From: a virus
DNA: 21,920 nucleotides
Reading direction: 5' to 3' (one strand)
IMG/VR virus record: IMGVR_UViG_3300048686_000566
Span: 1-21,920 of that record
The translations under genes and the position numbers were made by a program. The notes beneath the pieces were generated by a model that saw only the letters and a list, made by a program, of their open reading frames with translations, was not told where the DNA came from and did no database searches. Numbering within the stretch: the stretch's first letter is position 1; each line of letters begins with the position of its first letter. Shown here piece by piece: positions 8,532 through 10,330 of the stretch.

Positions 8532-8621
8532 TGGTGCTGATGGTAGGAGTCGAGCCTACGGGGTCAATTTAATAACAACAGATTTACAGTCTGCTCCCGC
8601 CCCCTACGGGTCTACATCAGC
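8532..8621 (-). tRNA. tRNA-Tyr (anticodon GTA)
   Basis: A type II tRNA with acceptor GCTGATG/CATCAGC, anticodon loop CTGTAAA (GTA), a long variable arm, T-loop and encoded CCA. Its first 10 nt contain the stop codon of the HNH gene just upstream. Confidence 0.9.
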
Positions 8622-9052
8622 TTATAATATCGTAATCTTTTTTTATTTGCTTTGCCTTTGTTTAGAGCTTTATATGTGCTAGTGAGCGCATGGCAATTAG
8701 GACATAATACTCTAAGATTTTCTGGTCTGTTATTTGTGCTATCACCATCAATGTGATCTATCTCTAAGGGACTCCTGTTGGTAACTGGATTAATTTTATT
8801 CCAACCACATTGAATACATTTGTGATCTGCTTGTTCTAATAAGTAAGTTCTTATTGAATTTGATAGTTGATTTCCGTTATTTTTTGTGCCATCAAAAGTC
8901 CCCGATTTCCAATTATTAACTTTTTGATCGCTCTGGTACTTTTGTTGACACTTTACAGAACAATATTTCCCCTTTTGAGCAGTTTGTAAGTATTCAAACT
9001 TAATATTGCAAAATTTACAAAGTGATTCTTTTCTTTTTTTTGGATTTGACAT
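8612..9052 (-). CDS. HNH homing endonuclease (free-standing)
   Basis: A 146-residue protein from the ATG at 9050-9052 (upstream in-frame ATGs exist at 9070 and 9094). Domains in order: a zinc finger with C12xxC15 and C31xxxC35 (a MazF-antidote/HNH-associated type), a linker, then C79xxC82 and the HNH core: D99-H100 (EIDHIDGD), N residues after it, and C117xxC120-H121. It cuts DNA and promotes its own spread; its position between tRNA-Lys and tRNA-Tyr, with the stop codon inside tRNA-Tyr, suggests a tRNA-linked target. Two copies of AGATCTACTAT lie just upstream, one touching the start codon. Confidence 0.85.
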   Translation of the reverse strand: MSNPKKRKESLCKFCNIKFEYLQTAQKGKYCSVKCQQKYQSDQKVNNWKSGTFDGTKNNGNQLSNSIRTYLLEQADHKCIQCGWNKINPVTNRSPLEIDHIDGDSTNNRPENLRVLCPNCHALTSTYKALNKGKANKKRLRYYKLM

Positions 9053-9094
9053 AGTAGATCTCTTATACATATATATAGTAGATCTAGAGTTCAA
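9048..9094 (-). repeat. Direct repeat AGATCTACTAT upstream of the HNH gene, with weak promoter-like boxes
   Basis: The 11-mer AGATCTACTAT occurs twice within about 40 nt, the second copy ending at the ATG of the HNH gene. TTGAAC (9094-9089) followed 15 nt later by TATATG could serve as a weak promoter. The repeat encodes RST twice in the longer reading frame, so a short tandem duplication of the start region is the simplest origin. Confidence 0.35.
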
Positions 9095-9114: not shown

Positions 9115-9188
9115 TGGTGACTCCACCGAGACTCGAACTCGGATAGACTGGTTAAAAGCCAGATATTCTGCCATTGAATTATGGAGTC
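9115..9188 (-). tRNA. tRNA-Lys (anticodon TTT)
   Basis: Acceptor GACTCCA/TGGAGTC, anticodon loop CTTTTAA (TTT), T-arm with GTTCGAG and encoded CCA. The outermost pair of the anticodon stem is a T-T mismatch. Confidence 0.88.
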
Positions 9189-9345: not shown

Positions 9346-9405
9346 ATCGTTGTTTGGTAGGGATGGCGGGAATCGAACCCGCACGCCTTAGGGGCTTCAG
9401 ATTTT

Positions 9406-10084
9406 CTTACTACTTCGGCTTTCACCGCTGCTATATACCTAAAGGGTACACGCATTTGTAGTCTGGACTATGCCTTTGCCTTTCCTAGTTACAGGAGTCA
9501 GGCACTAACCGTCTAGTCTCTACACACATTACATTATTATGAAATATAAATACACCATTGAACAACTTAAAGAAGCTATAACAACTAGCAATTCTATTCG
9601 TGAAGTTTTAATGAGGCTTAATATCATTCCAGCAGGAGGGAATTATGCTACATTAAAAAAACAAATTAAGCTGCACAAATTAGATATATCACACTTCAAA
9701 GGCAAATCTTGGAACAAGAATAGAAAATTTGGACATAAACGTCCTATTGCATCTTATTTATGTAATCAATTCTCTATAACATCTCATCGTCTACGTCAAA
9801 GACTAATTCAAGAAGGTTTATTCAAACCTCAATGCTCAAATTGCAATCTTAAGAGTTGGTTAGGTAAAAATATACCTCTAGAATTAGATCATATTGACGG
9901 AGATCATGAGAATAATAATCTTTGTAACTTAAGATTACTTTGTCCAAATTGCCATGCTCTTACACCTAATTATAGGGGTAAAAACATAAAAATGTAATTT
10001 GGCTCGGCGTTGCCATGTTAAAGGTTTCACCGAATTTGGTTAGTTCTCAGTAAAGGATTTCTCCTTTATGACTCATATAGTTAA
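9406..10084 (-). ncRNA. Group I intron (679 nt) in tRNA-Leu(UAA)
   Basis: P1: exon GACTT pairs with intron GAGTC, giving a U-G pair at the 5' splice site. P2: AAAGGA-GAAA-TCCTTT. P3/P4/P5: GGTGAAACC, then GGCAACGCCGAGCC (10014-10001), matching the P/Q elements of cyanobacterial tRNA-Leu introns. P7: GAGACTAGACGG (R, about 9520-9509) and AGGCATAGTCC (S). The last intron base is G. All core elements seem intact, so it should self-splice. An HNH gene on the opposite strand (9539-9997) fills the P6 region; without it the intron would be about 220 nt. Confidence 0.85.
9539..9997 (+). CDS. HNH endonuclease gene inside the intron, antisense to it
   Basis: A 152-residue HNH endonuclease. The N-terminal ~95 residues include helices (TIEQLKEAITTSNSIREVLMRL) of the helix-turn-helix type used to bind the target; the C-terminal part has C99xxC102, ELDHIDGD (D117-H118), N residues, and C135xxC138-H139 (LLCPNCHALT). 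It lies between the P4/P5 and P7 elements of the intron but on the opposite strand, so it must be transcribed against the tRNA. No Shine-Dalgarno site or clear promoter precedes the ATG. The CPNCHALT segment is shared with the HNH at 8612-9052, but the N-termini differ. Confidence 0.85.
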   Translation: MKYKYTIEQLKEAITTSNSIREVLMRLNIIPAGGNYATLKKQIKLHKLDISHFKGKSWNKNRKFGHKRPIASYLCNQFSITSHRLRQRLIQEGLFKPQCSNCNLKSWLGKNIPLELDHIDGDHENNNLCNLRLLCPNCHALTPNYRGKNIKM

Positions 10085-10119
10085 AAGTCTGATGTGTCTG
10101 CCTATTCCACCACATCCCC

Positions 10120-10330
10120 GTTATTTTAAAGAGCTAAGTTGCAATTTTAGTTTAACGCACGCAACGAAACATAATGGATAAATTGCAAAAACCCCCAACA
10201 TAGCCACCTCTGTTCTTAACGTCCATCGGGCGAATGGTACTCGGACGTTTTCAGCTATGTCAAACGCTTGCTGTAGCCGCAGCGATAAAAAATGTACGCC
10301 ATCGTTGACACTCAACAACGTACTCGCATT
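10120..10330. other. Structured intergenic segment between tRNA-Asn and tRNA-Leu
   Basis: No convincing gene. The segment has nested perfect inverted repeats: acatagc (10198-10204)/gctatgt (10254-10260) enclosing aacgtcc (10218-10224)/ggacgtt (10243-10249), then on the minus strand GGGGG and five T, and another pair ttgcaattt (10139-10147)/aaattgcaa (10180-10188). This looks like a structured RNA. A 65-codon minus frame from a TTG (10121-10318) includes PLCFVACVKLK, and another frame reads YIFYRCGYSKRLT. Both remind me of translated peptides from the leader/immunity (ash/kil) regions of P4-like satellites and Pasteurellaceae prophages; I cannot verify this. Confidence 0.35.

Follow-up and report, generated by a model that had tools for sequence, protein, structure and literature searches.

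An antisense HNH gene in the P6 loop of a phage tRNA-Leu(UAA) group I intron, and its free-standing and intron-borne relatives

The closest described counterparts of the element analyzed here are the group I introns of bacterial tRNA genes (cyanobacterial tRNA-Leu(UAA); proteobacterial tRNA-Leu and tRNA-Ile, Azoarcus type). The intron that we investigated lies in a virus record from IMG/VR (IMGVR_UViG_3300048686_000566; 21,920 bases), the whole of which is referred to as the window. It shares with the bacterial introns a P1-P9 core and GAAA loops in P2 and P9.2, and its insertion site is that of the bacterial tRNA-Leu introns. Unlike them, however, it is phage-borne, contains an HNH gene in P6 and appears to have a core nearer to the proteobacterial and phage type than to the canonical cyanobacterial one. 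Antisense homing endonuclease genes have been reported for group I introns of nuclear rDNA (I-DsqI in Didymium L2066; Dir.S956-2), among which sense and antisense endonuclease forms occur at one site and I-DsqI is expressed and cuts (PMC9548176). These introns resemble the one in the window in that the endonuclease gene lies opposite the intron strand and that sense and antisense forms exist at one site. However, the I-DsqI type is characterized by a His-Cys box enzyme, a location in P9.2 (L2066), a eukaryotic rDNA context and spliceosomal introns within the gene, whereas the window has an HNH gene in P6 of an intron in a phage tRNA gene. We found no description of antisense endonuclease genes in bacterial or phage introns in the open-access literature searched.

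A second parallel is provided by collaborative homing, described for several phage pairs, F-CphI/psbA among them (PMC3984707, PMC10448857), in which a free-standing endonuclease lies beside a gene with an ORF-less intron and the two are thought to have one target, an arrangement from which composite introns have been proposed to arise (PMC3984707). The family to which the HNH gene of the window belongs likewise includes free-standing endonucleases adjoining a gene with an ORF-less intron. Whereas the F-CphI/psbA-type pairs comprise few cases, all in protein genes, this family spans dozens of tRNA-gene loci, with separate and captured stages, two loops and two orientations. Among endonucleases linked to tRNA genes, the one encoded by a tRNA-fMet intron reportedly has the anticodon region as its specific target (Bonocora and Shub 2001, as cited in PMC3984707 and PMC3428280). 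It shares with the window HNH its residence in a tRNA group I intron, but concerns another tRNA and a cellular genome. This enzyme is reportedly of the PD-(D/E)XK type. SegB of phage T4 is a GIY-YIG enzyme (PMC2988022), and HegA of phage T5 (F-TflIV) has its HNH half in common with the window protein (53% identity over residues 61-150). Endonucleases of the SegB and HegA type lie in or near phage tRNA regions, as does the window HNH, but unlike the latter they are only free-standing. According to a 2014 review, the phage group I introns then known all resided in protein genes (PMC3984707), and we found no report of group I introns in phage tRNA genes in the open-access literature searched. The window and its relatives, which include at least one cultured phage, Atu_ph07, extend beyond this range.

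In the window, the genes for the tRNAs Gly, Ile, Asn, Leu, Arg, Lys and Tyr follow one another on the minus strand; all of them are called by tRNA prediction except the split tRNA-Leu(UAA) gene (10119..9355), which is interrupted by a group I intron between U34 and A35 (Table 1). When joined, its exons form an 86-nt tRNA-Leu(taa) with a clean, full cloverleaf in ARAGORN. A near relative, L160, which shows 89% identity in the adjacent AAA protein and an unchanged tRNA order, has an uninterrupted tRNA-Leu gene (...CAGACTTAAAATCTG...) whose exons are identical to those of the window, thereby fixing the intron junction at U34|A35, the position that a previous sequence-only reading had assigned to it. 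Two further contigs show the same arrangement as the window and encode HNH proteins that are 100% (L002) and 93% (L003) identical to the window protein, so that intron-plus and intron-minus alleles occur among close relatives. L160 also lacks the 208-bp spacer between tRNA-Asn and tRNA-Leu and the second HNH gene, located between tRNA-Lys and tRNA-Tyr, both of which are present in the window and L003. The window and L003 are 91-99% identical over the tRNA/intron/HNH block and mostly 79-93% identical outside of it, as would be expected after a recent exchange.

Table 1. Positions of the tRNA-Leu(UAA) exons, the intron elements and the two HNH genes in the window.
Feature	Position	Strand	Evidence
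5' exon of tRNA-Leu(UAA), 35 nt, U34 last	10085..10119	-	ARAGORN on joined exons; identical exon in intronless L160
Group I intron, 679 nt, terminal G directly before A35	9406..10084	-	Joined exons, L160 empty site, pairing counts, covariance model
P3 5' strand ACTAACC, partner of 9510-9504, forms a pseudoknot with P7	10038..10044	-	Pair counts
P4 strands TCGGTG (10033-10028) and CGCCGA (10009-10004), P5 between	10004..10033	-	Alignment, pair counts
P6 5' strand ATTACATT, overlaps antisense HNH stop codon	9991..9998	-	Sequence, pair counts
Predicted HNH endonuclease gene, 152 aa, in P6 loop, antisense to intron	9539..9997	+	ORF, PHROG, residues, dN/dS
P6 3' strand AATGTAAT, just upstream of HNH start codon (other strand)	9528..9535	-	Sequence, pair counts
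P7 5' strand GACTA (9518-9514) and P3 3' strand GGTTAGT (9510-9504)	9504..9518	-	Alignment, pair counts, covariance model
P7 3' strand TAGTC (S element)	9466..9470	-	Alignment, pair counts
3' exon of tRNA-Leu(UAA), CCA encoded	9355..9405	-	ARAGORN on joined exons; L160
Second HNH gene, between tRNA-Lys (9115-9188, -) and tRNA-Tyr	8612-9094	-	Absent from L160

For the window intron, helices P1, P2, P3, P4, P5, P6, P7, P8, P9 and P9.2 can all be drawn. The tRNA-Leu introns used for comparison were collected with two sequence patterns, and 39 of them were aligned after excision of their coding inserts. P1 of the window intron (GACUU/GAGUC) contains a U.G pair at the 5' splice site, as do all 39 aligned introns (39/39), and its terminal base is a G. 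Counted on these 39 introns for P1-P9 and P9.2, including the P3/P7 pseudoknot, the structure is paired in 87.6% of cells, compared with 29-41% when partners are slid by 1-3 columns and 69% after shuffling; the covariation score is 0.477 versus 0.151 for shuffled alignments, and 36 of the 56 pairs show changes on both sides, with P7 being invariant. Since the HNH gene inserts 450 nt of coding sequence between Q and R and thereby divides the core, Rfam model RF00028 recognizes the 5' half only (27 bits, E 1.1e-4; below the gathering score of 50). A covariance model of our own, based on 23 ORF-less introns with the window excluded, finds two minus-strand matches in the window that flank the HNH gene, 10092-9945 (69.5 bits, E 1.7e-18) and 9597-9398 (71.9 bits, E 3.6e-19), the next-best match having an E-value of 0.59. 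It also detects the introns of L003, L006, L337, L358, L360, L363, L379 and L385 and gives no match on intronless L160. The proposal of a group I core, for which a covariance-model fold had been suggested as a check, is thus borne out for both halves of the core, and a chance or artefactual origin of the signal is rejected by the covariance matches, the two further contigs and the empty site. The segment between the exons is a group I intron with a conserved core, a P3/P7 pseudoknot and P4-P6.

The same reading had assigned the intron to the ancient cyanobacterial/chloroplast type, based on its insertion site and its P1, P/Q and R/S elements. The shared site between U34 and A35 stands, whereas the P/Q and R/S elements differ: canonical cyanobacterial tRNA-Leu introns, which we detected in 23 of 146 sampled cyanobacterial genomes, read GCAGAGACUC...GAGUCC, with GACUC...GAGUCC as P7, while the window core reads GUAGAGACUA...UAGUCC, with GACUA...UAGUCC as P7. 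The latter form is common to proteobacterial tRNA-Leu and tRNA-Ile introns and to many phage tRNA introns. In a tree of intron cores, 14 canonical cyanobacterial cores form a separate clade (100/100), and a branch with 98/88 support unites the window with proteobacterial and phage cores, although forcing the window into the cyanobacterial clade is not rejected in this weak tree test (p-AU 0.51). One cyanobacterium, Myxacorys (L061), has a window-type core. The window intron thus appears closer to the tRNA introns of proteobacteria and other phages than to the cyanobacterial/chloroplast type, and it probably combines the cyanobacterial tRNA-Leu insertion site with a different core lineage.

The placement of the HNH gene within P6, on the strand opposite to the intron, holds as originally described: the ORF is intact, lies between Q and R and is flanked by the two strands of the P6 stem. 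Its product matches PHROG 10822 (E 1.8e-41), whereas its match to Pfam HNH_3 (E 0.0013) is under the cut-off. Residues H118, N130 and H139 as well as C99, C102, C135 and C138 (CxxC/CxxC) are invariant across 35 relatives, so that the predicted protein has the H-N-H and zinc-binding cysteine residues of an HNH endonuclease. In its AlphaFold model (pLDDT 89), the N-terminal part is all-helical and the HNH part is C-terminal; a Foldseek search of the PDB with this model yields no significant match, the top matches, which include HNH enzymes, having E-values above 0.05. Between the window and L003, the gene differs in 17 synonymous and 11 non-synonymous codons (dN 0.031, dS 0.245, dN/dS 0.13), which, for this one relative, indicates that the frame is under purifying selection.

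The arrangement in the window is not a one-off, since several lineages have an antisense or sense HNH gene from one HNH family. A profile scan of viral contigs identified 80 HNH loci, to which loci from phage records were added; the resulting counts include partly related contigs and thus non-independent entries. Twenty-six members of this combined set lie within introns, all of them at tRNA-Leu(UAA). They fall into seven antisense genes in P6 (the window, L003, L337, L358, L360, L363, L379), four sense genes in P6 (L006, L385, L417, L418) and 15 genes in the P1 loop, all in sense orientation; merging near-copies leaves 6, 3 and about 14, respectively. Orientation thus differs between the P1 and P6 loops (Fisher p 8e-4, for rows that are not independent). 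L006, from the 595-kb phage LR756511, has an intron at the identical site with a 49% identical HNH in P6, in sense orientation.

Free-standing members of the family are likewise associated with this tRNA. For 43 of 62, the nearest tRNA gene is Leu(UAA), including four Leu genes that ARAGORN calls Tyr(ata) because an intron splits them, and at about 12 of these 43 loci the adjoining tRNA-Leu has an ORF-less intron; some members of the family adjoin other tRNAs. As a control, we used the relatives of the second HNH gene in the window. At their 49 closest loci, Lys(UUU) is the nearest tRNA 17 times, Thr(UGU) 14 times and Leu(UAA) once, and the two families differ in their Leu(UAA) association (Fisher p about 1e-14, again for non-independent rows). 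With each of the two families having its own tRNA, the tRNA-rich surroundings alone are an insufficient explanation, and the Lys(UUU)/Thr(UGU) pattern of the second family (31/49) suggests that there are HNH families with single-tRNA specificity.

Taken as a whole, the locus is likely to represent a composite phage homing element that consists of an IC3-like group I intron and a member of an HNH family that was tied to tRNA-Leu(UAA) before its capture. The RNA part would be a self-splicing intron in tRNA-Leu(UAA), of the IC3-like type of bacterial tRNA genes, and the DNA part an HNH endonuclease whose family is associated with the tRNA-Leu(UAA) gene as such. Upon minus-strand transcription of the phage tRNA operon, the intron would fold with the HNH region looped out from P6 and splice to give normal tRNA-Leu, while the HNH gene would have a transcript of its own, from the plus strand. 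When a phage with an intronless tRNA-Leu gene infects the same cell, this gene would be nicked or cut by the HNH protein, and its repair would copy the intron together with the HNH gene into it. As to its origin, the family occurs both free-standing at tRNA-Leu(UAA) and within introns, as a collaborative-homing origin would have it: free-standing HNH genes beside tRNA-Leu(UAA) may have entered ORF-less introns already residing there, by way of P1 (sense in all cases here) or P6 (in both orientations), with the antisense P6 form then persisting as a lineage. A more far-reaching version, for and against which we see an equal chance, holds that an HNH family dedicated to tRNA-Leu(UAA) is represented at every stage of composite-intron formation (beside an intronless or an intron-bearing gene, in P1 in sense, in P6 in sense or antisense) and, in addition, that phage tRNA genes have HNH families of their own (Leu(UAA); Lys(UUU)/Thr(UGU)), so that tRNA arrays are shaped by endonucleases specific for single tRNAs.

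An alternative that we regard as rather unlikely is that the HNH protein targets the neighborhood of tRNA-Leu instead of the intron site and mobilizes the whole tRNA block, in the manner of T4 SegB, with the intron serving as a shelter for its gene. Such a target would fit the free-standing members that adjoin intronless tRNA-Leu genes, and it would also fit the high identity between the window and L003, which covers the whole Leu-to-Tyr block and hence extends beyond the intron. However, the specific association with tRNA-Leu(UAA) and the repeated intron capture at one site suggest a target that overlaps the site.

The sequence-only reading had also proposed that an antisense gene might avoid interfering with splicing or yield an antisense RNA to the intron. 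The antisense orientation could thus be functional in itself, with the HNH transcript pairing with the core (R, P8 and P9, or Q, P4 and P3) and tuning tRNA-Leu splicing during infection. Plus-strand transcripts would be complementary to the core if they began well upstream of 9539 or extended past 9997, and no plus-strand terminator is predicted just past 9997. Moreover, the antisense state clusters on the HNH tree, in which all seven antisense members fall into one 14-member clade (98/84), together with free-standing members of which four are antisense and three sense to tRNA-Leu; a single origin of the antisense state on this tree is not rejected (p-AU 0.38). On the other hand, sense members occur in P6 as well (L006, L385, L417), and we found no conserved promoter: in the stretch from R to the 3' exon, a search for a consensus promoter of the antisense gene gives the antisense members no better scores than 152 other viral introns (p 0.21 with two hexamers, p 0.13 with the -10 hexamer alone). 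A regulatory role of the orientation therefore appears quite improbable. A candidate T4 late promoter (TATAAATA) near 9544 was rejected, because it lies within the ORF and is not conserved in L003. Least probable of all is that the antisense HNH gene is a decaying, unexpressed passenger that reached the loop by chance, since, although the window and L003 have no Shine-Dalgarno sequence before the HNH start (a signal found in only 11 of the 35 genes of the window phage fragment) and no recognizable promoter, the frame is intact with a low dN/dS, the catalytic residues are conserved in the 35 relatives and the five other antisense members do have a Shine-Dalgarno sequence before the start codon (L337 AAGGAG, L358 AAAGGAA, L360 AAGGAGG, L363 AAAGGAA, L379 TTGGAG).

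Within the composite-element scenario, the pairwise identities of the antisense HNH proteins, which range from 41 to 58% except for the window and L003 (93%), suggest that the antisense state is old. A single recent inversion is rejected on account of these values and of a clade whose free-standing members are mostly antisense to tRNA-Leu. In the core tree, the antisense cores are scattered (5 changes), but their placement in one clade is not rejected (p-AU 0.22), and we therefore make no claim of HNH gene movement from core to core. The combination of endonuclease and intron has usually been argued from few phage protein genes. In the tRNA-Leu set, natural intermediates number in the tens, all at one 86-nt target and with both orientations, so that the sequence of steps and the significance of orientation become testable. 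The different placements of the HNH gene in related phages, outside the intron or within it, forwards or backwards, may in this way show how mobile introns are assembled.

Gene finders misread intron-split tRNAs. In its intron mode, ARAGORN reports the split tRNA-Leu genes of the window (9355-10119), L003 and L430 as tRNA-Stop(tta), false ochre suppressor calls that arise because the program misplaces the splice site and that could give rise to mistaken claims of phage stop-codon recoding. The spacer between tRNA-Asn and tRNA-Leu (10120-10330), which is about 77 nt longer in L003, contains a hairpin resembling a terminator as well as a promoter-like sequence, TTGACA-18-TACCAT, on the minus strand. 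Elsewhere in the window, positions 175-1620 form an array in which a degenerate 6-bp unit (CCATAG) is repeated about 239 times; it is open in several frames and would encode His/Ser or Gly/Tyr/Asp repeats.

Additional coding-looking inserts are found in P5 of L337, in sense orientation, and in P8 of L408, and tRNA-Leu introns can therefore accept inserts in several loops. Among cultured phages, the cyanophage S-CRM01 (L437 1358-1947, HQ615693.1) encodes a free-standing HNH of this family immediately downstream of tRNA-Leu, with which it overlaps in the annotation, and the Agrobacterium phage Atu_ph07 (C58; L460 1463-1824, MF403008.1) has a tRNA-Leu(UAA) with a 278-nt ORF-less group I intron, at which its record contains no tRNA annotation. 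The tRNA-Arg(cct) gene of Microcoleus phage OR578706.1 (L462 1011-1296) contains a group I intron approximately 213 nt long. Finally, a Pelagibacter phage (H87, MH598807.1 19653-19807) and a deep-sea phage (L463) have cores resembling those of phage tRNA introns at positions under or between genes for capsid proteins, so that the phage tRNA intron type may also occur in a protein gene.
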